Assembly: GCA_027491435.1 (NCBI GenBank)
Contig: JAOZFG010000029.1
Span: 1 to 53,029 of the forward strand
Length of the DNA: 53,029 nucleotides
Direction: 5' to 3'
From: Thermoproteota archaeon
GTDB lineage: Archaea; Korarchaeota; Korarchaeia; Korarchaeales; Korarchaeaceae
The position numbers were made by a program, and so were the translations under genes. The notes under the pieces were generated by a model. The model saw only the letters and a program-made list of their open reading frames with translations, was not told the DNA's origin and searched no databases. Below, one piece after another: positions 26,885-34,502 of the stretch (position 1 is its first letter; each line of letters opens with the position of its first letter).

Positions 26885-27652
26885 GTGATCCTTAGAGAGG
26901 CCAGGGAGGAGGATGTTGAAGACATAAGGGAGATAGCTTCCTTGACGTGGGAGGGTCACGACTATCTGGCGAAGGTCTTTCACAGCTGGGTCAAGGACGG
27001 GGGGTTCTTCGTAATAGAGGAGGGCAGTAAGGTGGTGGCCACGGCCAAGTTAACCAGCTTACCCTGCAACGTTGCCTGGTTTGAGGGCCTCAGGGTGCAC
27101 CCGGATTACAGGGGGAGGGGCTACGCCAAGACGCTCCACGAGCACCTGATCTCCTTAGCCAGGGAGGAGGGGTTCAGCAGGGCCATGTTCGCCACCTACT
27201 TCAAGAACTGGGCTAGCATCCACCTGGCCGAGAAATACGGGTTTAGGATGGCGCATAGATTCCACAACCTAATGTACGCTCCCAAAAAGGTGGAAGAGCC
27301 CATCAAGTGTGAAGTTAAGCTTCCCGACGTGGAACCGGTACCAATGGGCTGGAGGTTCCTCTACGTCTGTGAAGAGACCCTTAGCTGGTTGAGGGAGAGG
27401 GTGGACTCATTCTGCTTCAGTGAAGGTGGCTTCTTCGTTCCAAAAGATCCTCCCAGAGCCTTTACTCCTTTCTCCTACAAAGGCATGTTGAGGGCGGTCA
27501 ACTACATGGGGTGGGTGGCTGAAAGGATGGGCAATAAGGTCAACGTCCTGGTTCCCGAGGGGAATCCCCTAATAAACGAGCTATTCGAGTGGGGATTCCG
27601 TCAGTGGGAGGGCAGGGGGCCCGACGTGTACGTCTTCTCCCTCGACCTCTAA
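26885..27652 (+). CDS. GNAT acetyltransferase with C-terminal extension
   Basis: A 255-residue protein whose first ~140 residues are a GNAT domain. It opens ILREAREEDVEDIREIA, and the acetyl-CoA motif A is VHPDYRGRGYAKTLHEHL (R/Q-x-x-G-x-A/G type). SIHLAEKYGFRMAHRF follows. The second half (about 140-255) is a separate region with CEETLSWLRERVDSFCFSEGG and a C-terminal VNVLVPEGNPLINELFEWGF; it may be a degenerate second GNAT-like fold. The acceptor substrate is unknown. The start is GTG 26885, 60 bp from the divergent nfeD start. Confidence 0.87.
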   Translation: MILREAREEDVEDIREIASLTWEGHDYLAKVFHSWVKDGGFFVIEEGSKVVATAKLTSLPCNVAWFEGLRVHPDYRGRGYAKTLHEHLISLAREEGFSRAMFATYFKNWASIHLAEKYGFRMAHRFHNLMYAPKKVEEPIKCEVKLPDVEPVPMGWRFLYVCEETLSWLRERVDSFCFSEGGFFVPKDPPRAFTPFSYKGMLRAVNYMGWVAERMGNKVNVLVPEGNPLINELFEWGFRQWEGRGPDVYVFSLDL

Positions 27653-27809: not shown

Positions 27810-28325
27810 GTGATTGAGATCAAGGTCAGGAAGTACTCGTTGACGGTTAAGGAGAGCAAGAGGCTCATAGATGAGGCTCTCTCTAAGTTTCCCGGAATTG
27901 AGGCGGTGATAAAGAGAAGGAAGACCTCCTTACAGGCTTTAGAGGTTCCCTGGAAGGGTAAGACGGCAAAGGTCCTGTTCTACGAGGGGGAGCCCCTGCT
28001 GGTCCAACTGCCCGACGGCACGCTCCTGCCCTTCCTGACGGCCGTCGAGAAGTACCACCTCTCCATACCTAAGGTGGTCATAGACAAGGGCGCCATAATG
28101 CCCGTGGCCAAGGGGGCTCACGTTATGGGGCCAGGCATAGTCAGGGTGGAAGGGGAGTTCAACCCGGGAGACGTGGTTGTCGTGGTGGAGGAGACCAGGG
28201 GTTACGTTATAGCCGTAGGGCTGGCTGAGAGGCCCCACGCCGAAGCTAAGGAGAGGGGAAGAACCGTAAAAAATTTACATCATGCAGGCGACCCCATATG
28301 GAGGGCGGTTGCCTCCCAGCAGTAG
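27810..28325 (+). CDS. PUA-domain RNA-binding protein (MCT-1-like)
   Basis: A 171-residue protein. The N-terminal ~85 residues (IKVRKYSLTVKESKRLIDEA) precede a PUA domain (about 88-165): KVVIDKGAIMPVAKGAHVMG, GIVRVEGEFNPGDVVVVVEE and YVIAVGLAERPHAEAKERGR. This is the layout of archaeal MCT-1/eIF2D-like PUA proteins (DUF1947 group), which bind RNA and are linked to translation or rRNA/tRNA handling. The substrate is not known. It starts on GTG at 27810 just after tRNA-Asp, and bcp follows 9 bp after its stop, probably co-transcribed. Confidence 0.87.
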   Translation: MIEIKVRKYSLTVKESKRLIDEALSKFPGIEAVIKRRKTSLQALEVPWKGKTAKVLFYEGEPLLVQLPDGTLLPFLTAVEKYHLSIPKVVIDKGAIMPVAKGAHVMGPGIVRVEGEFNPGDVVVVVEETRGYVIAVGLAERPHAEAKERGRTVKNLHHAGDPIWRAVASQQ

Positions 28326-28334
28326 GGTGTTAAC

Positions 28335-28802
28335 ATGATAGGAGAGGGTGAAGAGGCCCCTAACTTCTGCCTCCCTGATCAAGACGGGAGGGAGATCTGC
28401 TTAGACTCCTTCAGAGGCAGGTGGGTAGTCTTATACTTTTACCCAAAGGACAACACCAAGGGGTGCACTCAGGAGGCGTTGGACTTCACATCAAGGCTTG
28501 AAGACTTCCAGGAGCTGGGAGCTGCTGTCCTGGGGGTGAGTCCTGACTCGGTTAGAAGTCACAAGAAGTTTGCCGAGAAACACGGGCTTAAGGTGATTCT
28601 ACTCAGCGATGAGTCCAAGGATGTGTTGAAGATGTACGGGGTGTGGAAGCTCAAGAAGAGGTATGGGAGGGAATACTACGGGGTTGAGAGGAGCACCTTC
28701 CTCATAGATCCAGAGGGAGTGATCAGAAAGGTCTGGAGGAACGTCAGGGTTAAGGGCCACGTGGAGGAGGTGCTTCAAGCCCTTAGAGAGTTGGCCTCCT
28801 AA
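28335..28802 (+). CDS. bcp: Thioredoxin-dependent peroxiredoxin (BCP/PrxQ type)
   Basis: A 155-residue peroxiredoxin reducing hydrogen peroxide and alkyl hydroperoxides. The peroxidatic Cys is in FYPKDNTKGCTQEA (about residue 44), the PrxQ active site. KVILLSDESKDVLKMYGVWK and ERSTFLIDPEGVI are family signatures. The resolving Cys expected five residues after the peroxidatic one is absent, so it is probably a 1-Cys or atypical type; two extra cysteines (NFCLPDQ and REICLD) lie near the N-terminus. It follows the PUA gene with a 9 bp gap. Confidence 0.93.
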   Translation: MIGEGEEAPNFCLPDQDGREICLDSFRGRWVVLYFYPKDNTKGCTQEALDFTSRLEDFQELGAAVLGVSPDSVRSHKKFAEKHGLKVILLSDESKDVLKMYGVWKLKKRYGREYYGVERSTFLIDPEGVIRKVWRNVRVKGHVEEVLQALRELAS

Positions 28803-28833: not shown

Positions 28834-28841
28834 TTTATATT
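28834..28841 (+). promoter_or_regulatory. TATA box for the acyl-CoA synthetase-like gene
   Basis: TTTATATT lies about 28 bp upstream of the ATG at 28866, indicating a nearly leaderless transcript separate from bcp. Confidence 0.55.
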
Positions 28842-28865
28842 TTTAGCGAGGGATTCCGAGGGAAA

Positions 28866-30161
28866 ATGGTACAGCGAGTCCTGGACCCCCTGTTCAGGCC
28901 TAAGGCTGTGGCCGTCATAGGGGCCACCAAGACCCCTAACAAGATGGGCCACGACGTCCTGAAGAACTTAATCTCCTACGGCTTCAGGGGGCCCATATAC
29001 CCGATAAACCCTAAGTACGATGAGATATACGACATAAAGTGTTACCCGACAGTCCTGGACGTGGTGGACAGGATAGATCTAGCGGTGGTCACGGTTCCCA
29101 TAGAGAACTCAATAAAGCTCATGAGCGAACTGGCTGCCAAGGGCGTTAGGGCCGTCGTGGTAACATCTAGAGTTGAGAGCGGGAAGGAAGAACTGGTAGA
29201 TTACCTTCACGACGCTGCCGAGAAGAACGGTATAAAGATGCTGGGCCCTGAGACCTTCGGCGTGATATACACTCATTCAAAGCTGAACGCCACCTACATG
29301 AACGACCCTCAAGTTAAGGCAGGACACGTGGCCGTTATGTCCTTCTCAACCCACGTCACCACGGCGGTTGTGGGGATGGCCAACTACCAGTCCGTCGGCC
29401 TGTCGGCAGTTGTCCAGCTAGGCGAAAGGTCCACGGTTAGCGAGGCCGAGATCCTGGAGTGGCTGAGAGAGGACAGGAAGACCAGGGTCATCGTGGTAAT
29501 ACTTAGCGAGATGACCGAAGACCTTCAGAGGGAGCTCGAGAAGGTTAACGAGAAGAAGCCAGTGATAACGGTCAGCCACTCCATATTCCTATCGGAGAAA
29601 GGTCTTTTAGAAGCTTCTTCCGTCAGAGAAGCCATGAACTGGTCATTGACTTTCGCCTCAAAGAAGAGGTATAGGGGGAGCAGGACCCTCATAGTCACCA
29701 ACGACGACAAGGCGACGGAGGCAATCTATGTTATGGCCAGGGACACCCAGCTGGACCTAATAGAAGTTCCCGAGGAGATAGTTAAGGAGATAAACATGAG
29801 CACGCCCGAGGAGGTTAGGCTCGAAAACCCCCTGGGAGTTCCCGTTCAGCTTCCTAGCTATGTGTTCACAGGAGTGTTAGAGAAGGCCTCCTTCAGCCAA
29901 GAGGTGGATAACGTAGTCATAATTTACTTTGAAACCCCACTCTCTGATCCCAACAACGTGGTAGAGGCGGTACTCAGCGTGTGGGATAGGACAGAAAAGA
30001 TGATAGTGGTGTCTATGATGGGGGGTAGGAGAGCCGCTGAAGGAGTTATAAAGCTCAGAGAGAACGGAGTTCCCGCATATTTCATACCCGAAGACTCCTT
30101 GAAGAGTCTGGATGCATTCGTCAAGTGGCACTCAGTTAGGTCGAACGAACGCCGGACCTAA
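28866..30161 (+). CDS. Degenerate ADP-forming acyl-CoA synthetase alpha-like protein
   Basis: A 431-residue homologue of the ADP-forming acetyl/aryl-acetyl-CoA synthetase alpha subunit. The CoA-binding fold is intact at the start (PLFRPKAVAVIGATKTPNK; GPIYPINPKYDEIYD), as is MLGPETFGVIYTHSKLNATY. The catalytic features are not. The SQSGA-like segment reads SFSTHVTTAVV. The region that normally carries the phosphorylated His (AASHTGSLAGSD-type) is missing, with KGLLEASSVREAMNWSL running straight on. The GGGxG segment reads TNDDKATEA. It should therefore not catalyse the usual phosphoryl transfer. It lies upstream of iorA, 39 bp away, with its own promoter. It may be a regulatory or CoA-binding partner. 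Confidence 0.85.
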   Translation: MVQRVLDPLFRPKAVAVIGATKTPNKMGHDVLKNLISYGFRGPIYPINPKYDEIYDIKCYPTVLDVVDRIDLAVVTVPIENSIKLMSELAAKGVRAVVVTSRVESGKEELVDYLHDAAEKNGIKMLGPETFGVIYTHSKLNATYMNDPQVKAGHVAVMSFSTHVTTAVVGMANYQSVGLSAVVQLGERSTVSEAEILEWLREDRKTRVIVVILSEMTEDLQRELEKVNEKKPVITVSHSIFLSEKGLLEASSVREAMNWSLTFASKKRYRGSRTLIVTNDDKATEAIYVMARDTQLDLIEVPEEIVKEINMSTPEEVRLENPLGVPVQLPSYVFTGVLEKASFSQEVDNVVIIYFETPLSDPNNVVEAVLSVWDRTEKMIVVSMMGGRRAAEGVIKLRENGVPAYFIPEDSLKSLDAFVKWHSVRSNERRT

Positions 30162-30200: not shown

Positions 30201-32102
30201 ATGGGAGATCTACTTGCCCCCGAGGGCAGCGTGGAAGTTCTGTTAGGCAATGAGGCCATCGCCAGAGGCGCCTTAGAGGGTGGCCTAAACGTCGCCGCCG
30301 CTTACCCTGGTACTCCGAGTACCGAGATAGGGGAGGCCCTCTCAAAGGTCGCTAAGAAGGTCGGGATATATTTTGAGTGGTCGGCCAACGAGAAGGTAGC
30401 CACAGAGGTTACGATGGCGGCGGCATGGTCGGGCCTTAGGTCACTGACAATGATGAAGCACGTGGGTTTCAACGTGGCTTCAGACGCGATATTCACTCTG
30501 GCCTACGCCGGGGTTATAGGAGGGATGGTCATTGTCAGCGCTGACGATCCCCACGCCCACAGCAGCCAGAACGAGCAGGACAACAGGCATTACGCCGAGT
30601 CAGTCGGGCTGCCTATGCTTGAGCCCTACGGCCCTCAAGAGGCCAAGGAGTTCACTAGGATAGCCTTTGACCTCTCGGAGAAGTACAGAATACCCTTCAT
30701 GATAAGGACAACCACCAGGGTCAGCCACCAGAGGGCCCCGGTCAGGCTTGGCAAGATAACTGCCTCGGGAAAGAAGGGAGAGTTCGTACTCCCGGAGCCC
30801 GACAGGTACCTCCAGGTCGGGGCCATAGCCAGGAAACATCACAAGGAGCTCTTGGAGAAGCTCGACAGGATAAGGGAAGAGGTCGCTGCCAAAGACCCGT
30901 TTCTCAAGTTTTATGGGGACGAGGATTCTGACTTCGGCATAATAACATCGGGGGTCTCGTTCGCTCACACGATGGAGGCCCTAAAGCTTACCGGAATAAA
31001 GGCCAAGGTGTTAAAGCTCGGAATGACGTTCCCGCTGCCCGAGGAGAGGATAGGTGACTTCTTATCCGGTTTGTCAACCGTCCTGATAGTTGAGGAGCTT
31101 GACCCATACCTGGAAGTTAGGGTTAAGGCCATAGCTAAGGATTACGCGCCAGACGTCGATGTCCTCGGAAAGCTAACGGGCCACATGCCCAGGGTCTGGG
31201 AGTACAGGGTCAGGACCGTGCTGGAAGGCCTGTCAAAGGCCCTGGGTATAAAGTATCCGGTTAACTTCCCTGAGATAGACAGAAGGAGTTCAAAGGTCCT
31301 CAAGAGAGTTCCTCCAAGGCCACCAGTTCTCTGTCCAGCTTGTCCACACAGGTCAACTGGTTATGCCCTTAGGAGGGCCGCTGGAAGGGCTTACTTCGTC
31401 GGAGACATCGGCTGCTACGCCTTGCTGTTCCAGAAGCCGTTCAGGGTGGAGCACGTCACCCACGCGATGGGCGCCTCAATTGGAGTGGCCAATGGGCTAA
31501 ACATAGCCACTGAAAATGATGTTGTGGCCCTCATAGGAGACTCGACCTTCTTCCACGCCGGGATTCCAGCCCTGATAAACGCTGTTCACAACAAGAGGAA
31601 GATGACTGTCATCATAATGGATAACAGGACCACGGCCATGACTGGCCACCAGCCCCACCCAGGTACCGAGGTTGACGCCATGGGCCAGCAGGCAGAGGCG
31701 GTCGACATTGAGAAAGTCGTCAGGTCCATAGGAGTGGACTTCGTCAAAGTAGTTGATCCCTACGACCATAAGGCAACGGAGAAGGCGATAAGAGAGGCCT
31801 TAAAGCACGATGGTGTTTCAGTAGTTATAACAAAGAGGGAATGCGCCTTGCTGACCGTAGCCAGGCTCAGAAGGGAGGGCAAGAAGATAGTTCCCTACAG
31901 GGTGGACCCGGAGAAGTGCACCTACTGCAGGGTCTGCCTGAATACCTTCGCCTGCCCGGCCTTCGTGGATACAGGCAAGCTAGTTGAGATAGACCCCACT
32001 GTGTGCTTTGGCTGTGGAGCCTGTGTACAAGTCTGCCCGTACGACGCCATAGTCCCTCAGGAGGGCTCTCTAAACTGGAGGGATGAGAGGATAGGGGTGT
32101 GA
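30201..32102 (+). CDS. iorA: Indolepyruvate ferredoxin oxidoreductase alpha subunit
   Basis: A 633-residue IorA, which oxidatively decarboxylates aryl pyruvates from Trp, Phe and Tyr to aryl-acetyl-CoA, reducing ferredoxin. The pyrimidine domain opens LLGNEAIARGALEGGLNVAA and YPGTPSTEIGEAL. The TPP/pyrophosphate domain has CPACPHRSTGYAL, VGDIGCYAL, then GDSTFFHAGIPALINAV and the Mg/TPP segment IIMDNRTTAMTGHQPHPG. Two 4Fe-4S ferredoxin motifs lie at the C-terminus (CTYCRVCLNTFACP and CFGCGACVQVCP). iorB overlaps its end. Aryl-CoA would then be used for ATP synthesis by an ADP-forming synthetase, but the homologue next door lacks the catalytic segment. Confidence 0.96.
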   Translation: MGDLLAPEGSVEVLLGNEAIARGALEGGLNVAAAYPGTPSTEIGEALSKVAKKVGIYFEWSANEKVATEVTMAAAWSGLRSLTMMKHVGFNVASDAIFTLAYAGVIGGMVIVSADDPHAHSSQNEQDNRHYAESVGLPMLEPYGPQEAKEFTRIAFDLSEKYRIPFMIRTTTRVSHQRAPVRLGKITASGKKGEFVLPEPDRYLQVGAIARKHHKELLEKLDRIREEVAAKDPFLKFYGDEDSDFGIITSGVSFAHTMEALKLTGIKAKVLKLGMTFPLPEERIGDFLSGLSTVLIVEELDPYLEVRVKAIAKDYAPDVDVLGKLTGHMPRVWEYRVRTVLEGLSKALGIKYPVNFPEIDRRSSKVLKRVPPRPPVLCPACPHRSTGYALRRAAGRAYFVGDIGCYALLFQKPFRVEHVTHAMGASIGVANGLNIATENDVVALIGDSTFFHAGIPALINAVHNKRKMTVIIMDNRTTAMTGHQPHPGTEVDAMGQQAEAVDIEKVVRSIGVDFVKVVDPYDHKATEKAIREALKHDGVSVVITKRECALLTVARLRREGKKIVPYRVDPEKCTYCRVCLNTFACPAFVDTGKLVEIDPTVCFGCGACVQVCPYDAIVPQEGSLNWRDERIGV

Positions 32103-32104
32103 GC

Positions 32105-32707
32105 ATGGAGCTTGAGGAGTTCAACATAATAGTGTCGGGAGTTGGAGGTCAGGGAATCCTGTTCGCCACGAACGTCTTAGCCAAGGCGGCCCTGAAGATG
32201 GGATTGGACCTTACGCAGAGCGAGGTTCACGGGCTGTCTCAAAGGTACGGGTCAATCCACACCGAGCTGAGGATAGGGAAGAAGGTGTGGAGCCCCCTAA
32301 TATTGGAGGGAACCCTGGACTTGTTGATAGCAATAGAGCCGCTAGAGGCCCTGAGGATGGCCCCCTATATATCGGAGAGGACCACGGTCATAATGAACAC
32401 CCACATAATACCCCCTGTGGGCGCCTACCTCGAGAGGTTCGACGTGCCCGACTTGGACGAGATACTAAGCCTCATGTCTGAGCTCAACCCGAAGAAAGTA
32501 ATAACCCTGAAGGCCTCTGAGCTGGCTGAGAAGGCCGGAGACGTAATAGCAACAAATTCTGTCATGTTAGGGGCTGCAGATGGTTCAGGAGCCCTGCCCT
32601 TCCCTGATGGCCTTCTCAGGGAGGCCTTGGAGGAGGCCTCACCCCCGAGGTATAGGGATTTAAATCTAAGGGCGTTCGATCTGGGGAGAGAGGCTGTCAG
32701 GGTCTAA
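32105..32707 (+). CDS. iorB: Indolepyruvate ferredoxin oxidoreductase beta subunit
   Basis: A 200-residue IorB (gamma-domain type of 2-oxoacid:ferredoxin oxidoreductases). The family start FNIIVSGVGGQGILFATNVL binds the pyrophosphate/CoA region, and LTQSEVHGLSQRYGSIHTEL is the typical second motif. It forms the (alpha-beta)2 enzyme with IorA. An ATG at 32105 with GGGGTG upstream is preferred over GTG 32099, which overlaps the iorA stop. The ABCE1 gene follows closely, 19 bp downstream. Confidence 0.95.
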   Translation: MELEEFNIIVSGVGGQGILFATNVLAKAALKMGLDLTQSEVHGLSQRYGSIHTELRIGKKVWSPLILEGTLDLLIAIEPLEALRMAPYISERTTVIMNTHIIPPVGAYLERFDVPDLDEILSLMSELNPKKVITLKASELAEKAGDVIATNSVMLGAADGSGALPFPDGLLREALEEASPPRYRDLNLRAFDLGREAVRV

Positions 32708-32726
32708 CTCCCCTAAGGTGATTTTT

Positions 32727-34502
32727 TTGGTCAGGAGGATCGCTGTAGTAGACAGGGAGCGGTGTAACCCCAGGAAGTGTGGGCTAGAATGCATAAAGTA
32801 CTGCCCCGAGGTGAGGATGGGGAAAGAGGAGACGATAAGGCTTGAGGACGACCTCCTTATAATTGACGAGGAGCTCTGCACGGGCTGCGGCATCTGCGTC
32901 AGGAAGTGTCCCTTCAAAGCTATATCCATAGTTAACCTCCCGGCCCCGGTAGAGGGCGAGGAGGTGCACAGGTACGGGCCCAACGCCTTCACCCTCTACA
33001 GGCTTCCCTTGGTCAGGACCAACAGGATAGTCGGGCTGATAGGGCCCAACGGGGTGGGCAAGTCCACCTCGATAGCCATACTCTCAGGGCAGGTCAAGCC
33101 CAACTTGGGAAGGTGGGACGACCCCCCTGACTGGGATGAGATAATAAGGCACTTCAGGGGATCAGAGCTCCAAGACTACTTCAAGAGGCTTTCTGAGGGT
33201 AAGATAAAGGTTGTCATTAAGCCTGAGAGGATAGACGTTATACCAAAGGCGGTCAAGGGTAAGGTGAGGGAAGTCCTGAACAGGGTAGATGAGAGGGGCG
33301 TATTGGACGAGGTCTCTGAACTGATGAGCTTGAAGCACCTGTTCGACAGGGAAGTTAAGGAGCTTAGCGGAGGTGAGCTGCAGAGGCTCGCCTTAGCGGC
33401 CGCCTATCTGAGGGAGGGGGATGTCTACGTCTTTGACGAGCCTTCAAATTACCTGGACGTCTTCCAGAGGATGAGGGCCGCCAAGCTCATCAGGAACCTT
33501 CAGGAGCAAGGTAAGTCCGTCCTGTTGGTGGAACATGATTTAGCTATATTGGACTACCTGAGCGACTACGTGCACGTCCTCTACGGCGAGCCAGGGGTTT
33601 ACGGGGTTGTAAGCTTCCCCCACAGCACCAGAGAGGGCATCAACATATTCCTGGACGGTTACCTGCCAGACGACAACGTCAGGTTCAGGGAGGACTCCAT
33701 CTCCTTCCTTCAGAGGGCTGGCAAGGTGGAACACTCTGAGGAACCGGTGGTTGTCTACACGGCCCTTGAGAAGTCGCTAGACGGCTTCCACCTGAGGGTT
33801 GAGGAGGGCGAAATATACTCCAGCGAAGTCGTGGTGGCCGTAGGGCCCAACGGAATAGGGAAGACCACCTTCGTTAGGATGCTGGCTGGGGAGCTCAGCC
33901 CCGACGAGGGGGTTGTGATGACCGAGGGGATAAAGGTTTCTTATAAGCCCCAGCACGTCAAGGCCACCTACGAGGGGACAGTGGACTCTCTGCTGAGGAA
34001 GGTGGCCGGATCGAACTACGCAAGCAGTTACTTCAAGGCGGAGGTGATAAAGAGGCTAGGAATAGAGAGGCTCTTGGACAGGTATGTGGACGAGTTGAGC
34101 GGGGGAGAGCTACAGAAGGTGGCCATTGCGGCTTGCCTGGGGAGGGATGCGGACATCTACCTGATCGACGAGCCTAGCGCCTTCCTAGACGTGGAGGCCA
34201 GGTTCGCCGTGGCGAAGGCCATAAGGAGGAGGATAGTCGGTGAGAAGAAGGCCGCTATAGTGGTGGAACACGACCTGCTCACGGTAGAGGCTATGGCCGA
34301 CAGGATAATGGTGTTCTCGGGAATCCCTGGCAGAGAGGGACGAGCTTCCAGGCCCATGGACCCCAGAAGGGGGATGAACGACTTCCTCAGGATAGTCGAC
34401 GTTACCTTCAGGAGGGATCCCGATACTGGGAGGCCTAGGGTGAACAAGCCCGGCTCTAAGATGGACCAAATGGCCAGGGCCAGCGGGAGGTACTACCCAT
34501 GA
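32727..34502 (+). CDS. ABCE1 / RNase L inhibitor-type ribosome recycling ATPase
   Basis: A 591-residue ABCE1, essential for splitting ribosomes after termination. The N-terminal Fe-S domain is complete: CNPRKCGLECIKYCP and CTGCGICVRKCP (two 4Fe-4S clusters). NBD1 has GPNGVGKST, signature ELSGGELQR and VYVFDEPSNYLDVFQRM. NBD2 has VAVGPNGIGKTTF, ELSGGELQK and IYLIDEPSAFLDVEARF. The hinge segment at the end contains MDPRRGMNDFLRIVDVTFRR. I chose TTG 32727 because GGTGAT lies about five bases before it, at the place of a GTG start (32718) that would add three residues. The following membrane-protein gene overlaps by 4 bp. Confidence 0.97.
   Translation: MVRRIAVVDRERCNPRKCGLECIKYCPEVRMGKEETIRLEDDLLIIDEELCTGCGICVRKCPFKAISIVNLPAPVEGEEVHRYGPNAFTLYRLPLVRTNRIVGLIGPNGVGKSTSIAILSGQVKPNLGRWDDPPDWDEIIRHFRGSELQDYFKRLSEGKIKVVIKPERIDVIPKAVKGKVREVLNRVDERGVLDEVSELMSLKHLFDREVKELSGGELQRLALAAAYLREGDVYVFDEPSNYLDVFQRMRAAKLIRNLQEQGKSVLLVEHDLAILDYLSDYVHVLYGEPGVYGVVSFPHSTREGINIFLDGYLPDDNVRFREDSISFLQRAGKVEHSEEPVVVYTALEKSLDGFHLRVEEGEIYSSEVVVAVGPNGIGKTTFVRMLAGELSPDEGVVMTEGIKVSYKPQHVKATYEGTVDSLLRKVAGSNYASSYFKAEVIKRLGIERLLDRYVDELSGGELQKVAIAACLGRDADIYLIDEPSAFLDVEARFAVAKAIRRRIVGEKKAAIVVEHDLLTVEAMADRIMVFSGIPGREGRASRPMDPRRGMNDFLRIVDVTFRRDPDTGRPRVNKPGSKMDQMARASGRYYP

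Follow-up and report, generated by a model that had tools for sequence, protein, structure and literature searches.

In a genus of Korarchaeaceae, an alpha-like protein of ADP-forming acyl-CoA synthetases (ACD), encoded next to the indolepyruvate ferredoxin oxidoreductase (IOR) genes iorAB, has lost the swinging loop that carries the phospho-histidine. In our view the protein is most likely a pseudoenzyme that arose in place from the IOR-accompanying ACD alpha and now acts as a non-catalytic (aryl)acyl-CoA- or CoA-binding protein; we give this reading a probability of about 0.5. The window is the whole analysed stretch of 53,029 nucleotides (contig JAOZFG010000029.1, assembly GCA_027491435.1). 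Its features are listed below.

27810..28325, + strand: PUA-domain protein, upstream gene in the conserved block (PF01472, 1e-16; synteny)
28834..28845, + strand: TATA-like TTTATATTTTTA, 21-32 nt 5' of the ATG (picked by eye, without statistics)
28866..30161, + strand: His-less ACD alpha-like gene, 431 aa, ATG start (profile, PDB and fold matches)
28881..29270, + strand: domain 1, CoA-binding Rossmann domain, about residues 6-135, borders set by us; the best-preserved part (PF13380, 77.8 bits)
29340..29354, + strand: SFSTH replacing SQSGA at the power-helix tip of domain 2, phosphate cradle changed (site matched by sequence motif)
29574..29579, + strand: S237/H238 junction, site of the missing phospho-His swinging loop (alignment)
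29697..29717, + strand: TNDDKAT replacing TNGGGxG at the power-helix tip of domain 5 (alignment)
30201..32102, + strand: iorA, IOR alpha (TIGR03336, 771.1 bits, cut-off 650.9)
32099..32707, + strand: iorB, IOR beta (TIGR03334, 191.5 bits, slightly below the cut-off of 205.8; PF01558, 6.4e-34)
32718..34502, + strand: ABCE1/RLI-like ATPase, next gene in the conserved block (PF04068, ABC_tran; synteny)

The product of the His-less gene matches the ACD alpha model TIGR02717 (2.3e-84, 283.7 bits), and a PDB sequence search aligned its residues 6-426 with the solved alpha chain of Korarchaeum ACD1 (4xyl, 1.1e-63). The curated TIGR02717 cut-off of 567 bits is missed by this protein and by two other His-less members (304.8 and 293.4 bits). 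Among intact alphas, one passes it (L021, 581.9 bits), and since two others score just under it (L025, 559.5; L036, 538.1), the cut-off alone is not decisive. On the succinyl-CoA synthetase alpha model TIGR01019, whose cut-off is 353.2, the window protein reaches 33 bits. Its 431 residues match CoA_binding_2, CoA_binding, Succ_CoA_lig and, below threshold, ATP-synt_F, with no GNAT fusion; a GNAT gene lies separate and unfused at 26885-27652.

An AlphaFold2 model of the window protein has a mean pLDDT of 92.2 and superimposes on 4xyl_A with Z 43.5 over 427 of 431 residues (rmsd 2.5), which places domains 1, 2 and 5 in one chain. The model of a second member (L068) likewise has a confident whole-length fold (Z 45.1 to ACD1). 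The initial annotation held that the CoA-binding fold remains, and this agrees with the matches to PF13380 (1.2e-21) and PF02629 (1.4e-14), which predict CoA binding, and with the whole-length match of the predicted fold to CoA-bound ACD1. The K. cryptofilum ACD1 alpha shares the three-domain fold at 30% identity and belongs to the same larger clade, but it has SHTGS, SQSGA and NGGG. PH0766 of Pyrococcus horikoshii (2csu) is also a stand-alone alpha of the same fold (Z 44.3 over 419 residues), but with 457 aa it is about 26 residues longer and it keeps the histidine, its chain reading SSHTG; its PDB entry names no function.

Roles of the altered sites were transferred by sequence motif, not by coordinates, from the Nitrosopumilus 4-hydroxybutyryl-CoA synthetase. 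In that enzyme, S246-I266 with H256 is described as a swinging loop that ferries phosphate over the roughly 30 Å separating the ATP site from the CoA site, and a sulfate interpreted as a phosphate mimic is bound by G163, A164, G310 and G311 (PMC11494057). In the window protein, 24 alignment columns that include the SHTGS segment in intact homologues are gone between S237 and H238, in accord with the block of about 25 residues that the initial annotation had reported missing. Both substitutions that it had named, SFSTH for SQSGA and TNDDKAT for GGGxG, are likewise seen.

We then examined the phylum in a sample of 29 genomes, in which 33 loci were fetched and a single alpha per locus was checked for SH[TS]; 15 alphas lack this pattern and 18 have it. 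Of the 16 genomes that belong to the window's genus (g1), 15 carry the His-less gene. In the remaining one (G019; 70% complete, 0.7 Mb, 3 contigs), neither the gene nor IorA was found at the thresholds used. The swinging loop with its SHTG is absent from the window protein and from all 14 relatives, in which 18 columns are missing. These 14 read [TSM]-E-S-[RKS]-T for SQSGA and NS[GSA]G for NGGG; the domain 5 motif, NDDK in the window, is NSSG or NSAG in five of them and NSGG in the other nine.

Presence of the gene in 15 genomes excludes chance. Sequencing or assembly error is ruled out by the same 15 genomes, one of which (G009) is a single contig of 1,590,757 bases. In G009, the crystallised ACD1 alpha of K. 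cryptofilum is encoded, with no visible mismatch over chain residues 1-464, together with a His-less paralogue (L024). The organism of the solved ACD1, or one sharing its chain exactly, hence has both forms. No iorA match was found within the 19.9 kb slice around the ACD1 gene (L062).

As had been stated for the window, iorA and iorB lie directly downstream of the open reading frame, and conserved synteny of the His-less form with iorA, suggested earlier as a check, was found in every genome carrying it: the order ACD alpha - iorA - iorB - ABCE1 holds in 15 of 15. A PUA gene upstream and a gene resembling G1P dehydrogenase downstream are each present at 14 of the 15 loci, the exceptions being contig ends. 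Distances were measured from start codons chosen by script. Where the contig includes both genes (13 of the 14 other members, the remaining one being cut by a contig end), the His-less gene starts between -34 and +11 nt relative to the stop of PUA; iorA starts 129-211 nt past the His-less gene in all 14. In the window these relations are reversed, with 540 nt between PUA and the His-less gene and only 39 nt to iorA. The longer interval contains an AhpC-TSA peroxiredoxin-like gene (28335-28802). A wide gap to iorA is not special to the dead form, since iorA also lies 43-143 nt from intact alphas in this slot (138 and 143 nt in genus g2).

In the sister genera g2, g4 and g5, an ACD alpha adjoins iorA at seven of seven loci, each time with SHTG; in g3 (G008) the nearest ACD alpha is not adjacent to iorA. 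At 1e-80, each of the eight genomes from the four sister genera (G006, G007, G008, G024-G028) has two IorA matches, and each of the 15 genomes of the window's genus with IorA has one. The slot between PUA and ABCE1 need not signify an IOR function, because a further genome, G005 (66% complete), has an intact alpha there (9046-10380 of L059, G005:C19:41000-54474), while no IorA reaching 1e-80 was detected in it. The ACD alpha may thus belong to the PUA/ABCE1 slot independently of IOR.

To place these loci among other archaea, we surveyed 198 genomes, 88 of which have an IorA match at 1e-80, and fetched 60 listed iorA places outside the window's family, some genomes being represented twice. No ACD alpha match lies nearby at 48 of these loci. 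Among the 12 slices that contain one, 11 have it upstream on the same strand (two of them more than 400 nt from iorA), and all 11 have SHT; the twelfth match (L242) comes from a fused protein of which the slice contains just the C-terminal half, and is uninformative. Nine of the upstream alphas belong to family f10 and two to f34, and the nine from f10 (9 of the 60 iorA loci) have SHTG. Their arrangement is similar to that of PF0532, the ACS2 alpha of Pyrococcus furiosus, which is described as forming an operon with IOR genes and as up-regulated on peptides, the enzyme ACS2 using phenylacetyl-CoA and indoleacetyl-CoA (PMC3942289). The window protein resembles this ACS2 alpha in adjoining iorAB, but the working enzyme needs the loop and its histidine, and both are gone here.

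A wider scan for His-less forms kept 80 loci out of 97 relatives; 34 were inspected, and only relatives with one of two patterns were detectable, so that rarer forms may have escaped the scan. Nine of the inspected loci belong to the genus, one of them truncated at a contig end, a tenth (L145) is a fragment from it, and 24 are others. In the latter group 18 have SH[TS]. Six lack it: three read SHIG and so keep the histidine (L085, L087, L097), and three (L101, L115, L119) are GNAT/ATP-grasp fusions of the Pat kind, in which it is absent.

To estimate the origin of the His-less form, trees were built from 73 alphas (58 with and 15 without the histidine), which are most of the phylum matches, with the loop columns left out. 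These are quick trees with SH-aLRT support only, and the program warned of long branches meeting, the window's included. All 15 His-less proteins form one clade (100) within a clade of 29 rows that also holds the IOR-slot alphas and ACD1. Removing the window protein leaves the other 14 together as a clade (100), which sits with slot alphas and ACD1 in a group of 28 rows (98). When the window protein is instead the sole sequence without the histidine, it joins slot alphas in a group of 9 rows (90). Its end branch measures 1.68 in the presence of its relatives and 3.17 in their absence. In a tree of IorA, IorB and ABCE1, the window splits first from the other 14 members (98), and it branches first within the genus in this tree and in the alpha tree alike.

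Because the histidine is present in seven of seven sister-genus slots and in 11 of 11 archaeal upstream alphas, the IOR-linked ACD alpha appears to have lost its catalytic loop in place. The simplest account is a single loss in the ancestor of the genus with later trimming in the window's lineage; two losses near the base of the genus are possible.

The initial annotation saw no ATP-grasp beta subunit nearby. The lack of a neighbouring beta is not evidence, because a single unlinked one exists: the window genome has one strong ATP-grasp_5 (PF13549) subunit (G000:C5, 296.6 bits). ACS1 and ACS2 alpha and beta genes are reported to be unlinked in Pyrococcus too (PMC3942289). One strong beta was found in all 15 genomes of the genus with the gene, and each of them has at least one His-bearing alpha among those fetched, so ATP formation from aryl acids need not be lost. 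In G019, the only ATP-grasp_5 match has 74.8 bits and lies in a 387-aa frame. Another ACD alpha of the window genome (L003:1495-2793, + strand; 433 aa, branch length 1.27) keeps SHTG and is without part of the region after TNGAG.

We wondered if the His-less protein might still serve within an ACD complex, as a dead partner in a mixed tetramer with a His-bearing alpha and the shared beta. It would then alter specificity or stability, its domain 5 completing the acyl site of the other alpha. In ACDs, one chain is described as contributing domains 1-2 to each pocket and the other chain domain 5 (PMC11494057), each Pyrococcus alpha can reportedly pair with either of two betas (PMC3942289), and the combination of one strong beta with further alphas in the 15 genomes would suit such an arrangement. 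The reading is weakened because the very motif that domain 5 would have to contribute is changed, to NDDK in the window and to NSSG or NSAG in five members, although nine have NSGG. Moreover, a loopless protein has no evident need to meet a beta subunit. We regard a mixed tetramer as unlikely.

Which parts of the fold have been retained was estimated from profile scores and from conserved columns. The CoA-binding profile PF13380 gives 77.8 (window), 89.1 and 81.2 bits in His-less members against 94.7 in the intact L021. The drop is larger for domain 2 (PF13607; 54.6, 76.3 and 80.9 against 192) and domain 5 (PF19045; 42.0 or unlisted against 93.9). Of 155 columns invariant in at least 13 of 14 His-bearing forms, with region borders set by us, the window protein keeps 29/40 in domain 1, 22/52 in the main part of domain 2, 0/13 in the loop, 5/11 after the loop and 15/39 in domain 5. 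The corresponding numbers kept in at least 13 of the other 14 members are 17/40, 17/52, 0/13, 2/11 and 15/39, so in these members the contrast between domains 1 and 5 (17/40 against 15/39) is weak. Five positions are changed alike in all 14: N129S, Q159E, A162T, S183G and G307S in the numbering of the 4xyl chain. Such parallel changes suggest a remodelled pocket, not random decay. Since the acyl pocket near the power helices has changed, specificity for aryl-acyl groups is uncertain.

A remodelled pocket could also mean another acyl-CoA chemistry that dispenses with phosphate and histidine, e.g. thioester hydrolysis or transfer. This would be consistent with E159, T162, G183 and S307, which lie near the old active site and are alike in 14 of 14 other members, as well as with position 161, which is R or K in 13 of these members, and with E213, which none of the 14 has lost. 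That chemistry can shift is illustrated by the DMSP lyase DddX (7cm9), which belongs to the same superfamily by fold match. The window protein, however, has F, T, H, Q and D in place of E159, R/K161, T162, G183 and S307, and no conserved nucleophile was noticed on unsystematic inspection. A catalytic role of this kind therefore seems to us slightly less likely than the mixed tetramer.

It might be argued that the gene is a decaying relic on its way out. Two observations point in this direction: the protein changes faster than IorA, and the window copy sits on a very long branch. In nine close pairs, dN of the His-less gene is 1.5-3.8 times that of iorA, compared with 0.2-0.9 times for the intact slot gene in five pairs, which indicates that constraint has been loosened but has not vanished. 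Omega in the same nine pairs is nevertheless 0.05-0.14 (0.03-0.05 for iorA), values that are rough because several dS exceed 1, and none of the 15 members contains an internal stop (one, L014, being cut by a contig end). When the window gene was mutated without selection, an open frame survived in only 4 of 200 cases at 0.1 changes per site, and in none of 200 at 0.3, 0.6 or 1.0. Purifying selection thus appears to have kept the gene in those members that can be tested, and the confident whole-length fold predicted for two members also speaks against decay. For the family, decay is already unlikely, and we hold it to be improbable as an explanation.

The window copy itself is less clear in this respect. 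Saturated comparisons with two other members give it an omega of 0.31 and 0.44, a third pair yields no defined value, and no close relative for a direct test of selection was found. Given its very long branch, and since it lacks motifs that its 14 relatives all have, this copy may have shifted in function or be losing it.

It is very improbable that the protein is a working ACD alpha with a relocated histidine, a relocated conserved histidine being one of the findings that the initial annotation had named as overturning its reading: the window protein does have H163 (in SFSTH) and H238 (in VSHS) near the old site, but the mobile loop that must swing roughly 30 Å (PMC11494057) is gone, and none of the other 14 members has a histidine in either of these alignment columns (in L014 there is one two columns after H238). 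The PDB search set VSH against SHTGS across long gaps, which we read as a choice of the aligner and not as homology.

We thus return to the non-catalytic CoA-binding pseudoenzyme as the best explanation. Within the window's genus, the ACD alpha beside IOR has lost its swinging loop while remaining in its slot; the phosphate site and the domain 5 motif have been remodelled, with the CoA-binding domain best preserved. By the known mechanism, transfer of phosphate between acyl-CoA and ADP would no longer be possible, so that the protein would have no ADP-forming activity. ATP would be made by the other, His-bearing alphas with the single shared beta. The protein might hold or sense arylacetyl-CoA made by IOR, or modulate IOR or another ACD.

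A CoA- or acyl-CoA-binding role is suggested by the likeness to Salmonella Pat, whose inactive ACD domain is described as binding acetyl-CoA with a KD of 290 nM, as being regulatory and as taken for a sensor (PMC8556138). The ACD domain of Pat/PatZ also has the ACD fold without the catalytic histidine, and PatZ structures 9it0 and 9isq match the window model with Z 37.1 and 36.3. It differs in being fused to ATP-grasp and GNAT domains, while the window protein is a stand-alone alpha with the loop deleted. In line with this likeness, the CoA-sensing, chaperoning or regulatory role put forward by the initial annotation may apply. By its location, IOR may be the client, but against an exclusive coupling to IOR counts that in most members the gene lies tighter to PUA than to iorA. 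A more specific proposal, a stand-alone arylacetyl-CoA receptor at the IOR locus that would control or feed IOR (or its reverse reaction) throughout the genus, is tentative, and we consider it doubtful as it stands.

The His-less protein is derived from a known enzyme, adds to the known theme of ACD pseudoenzymes without the histidine and is conserved within one genus; we recognised no report of a His-less, IOR-linked ACD alpha in the open-access literature. Annotation by similarity as an acetate-CoA ligase alpha would predict an ATP-forming step that the gene probably cannot supply. As intact forms still occupy the same slot in sister genera, the conversion of an energy-conserving subunit into a pseudoenzyme can here be placed on a tree. 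Since, in addition, a carrying genome encodes a solved, active paralogue, the role of a loopless ACD is directly testable.
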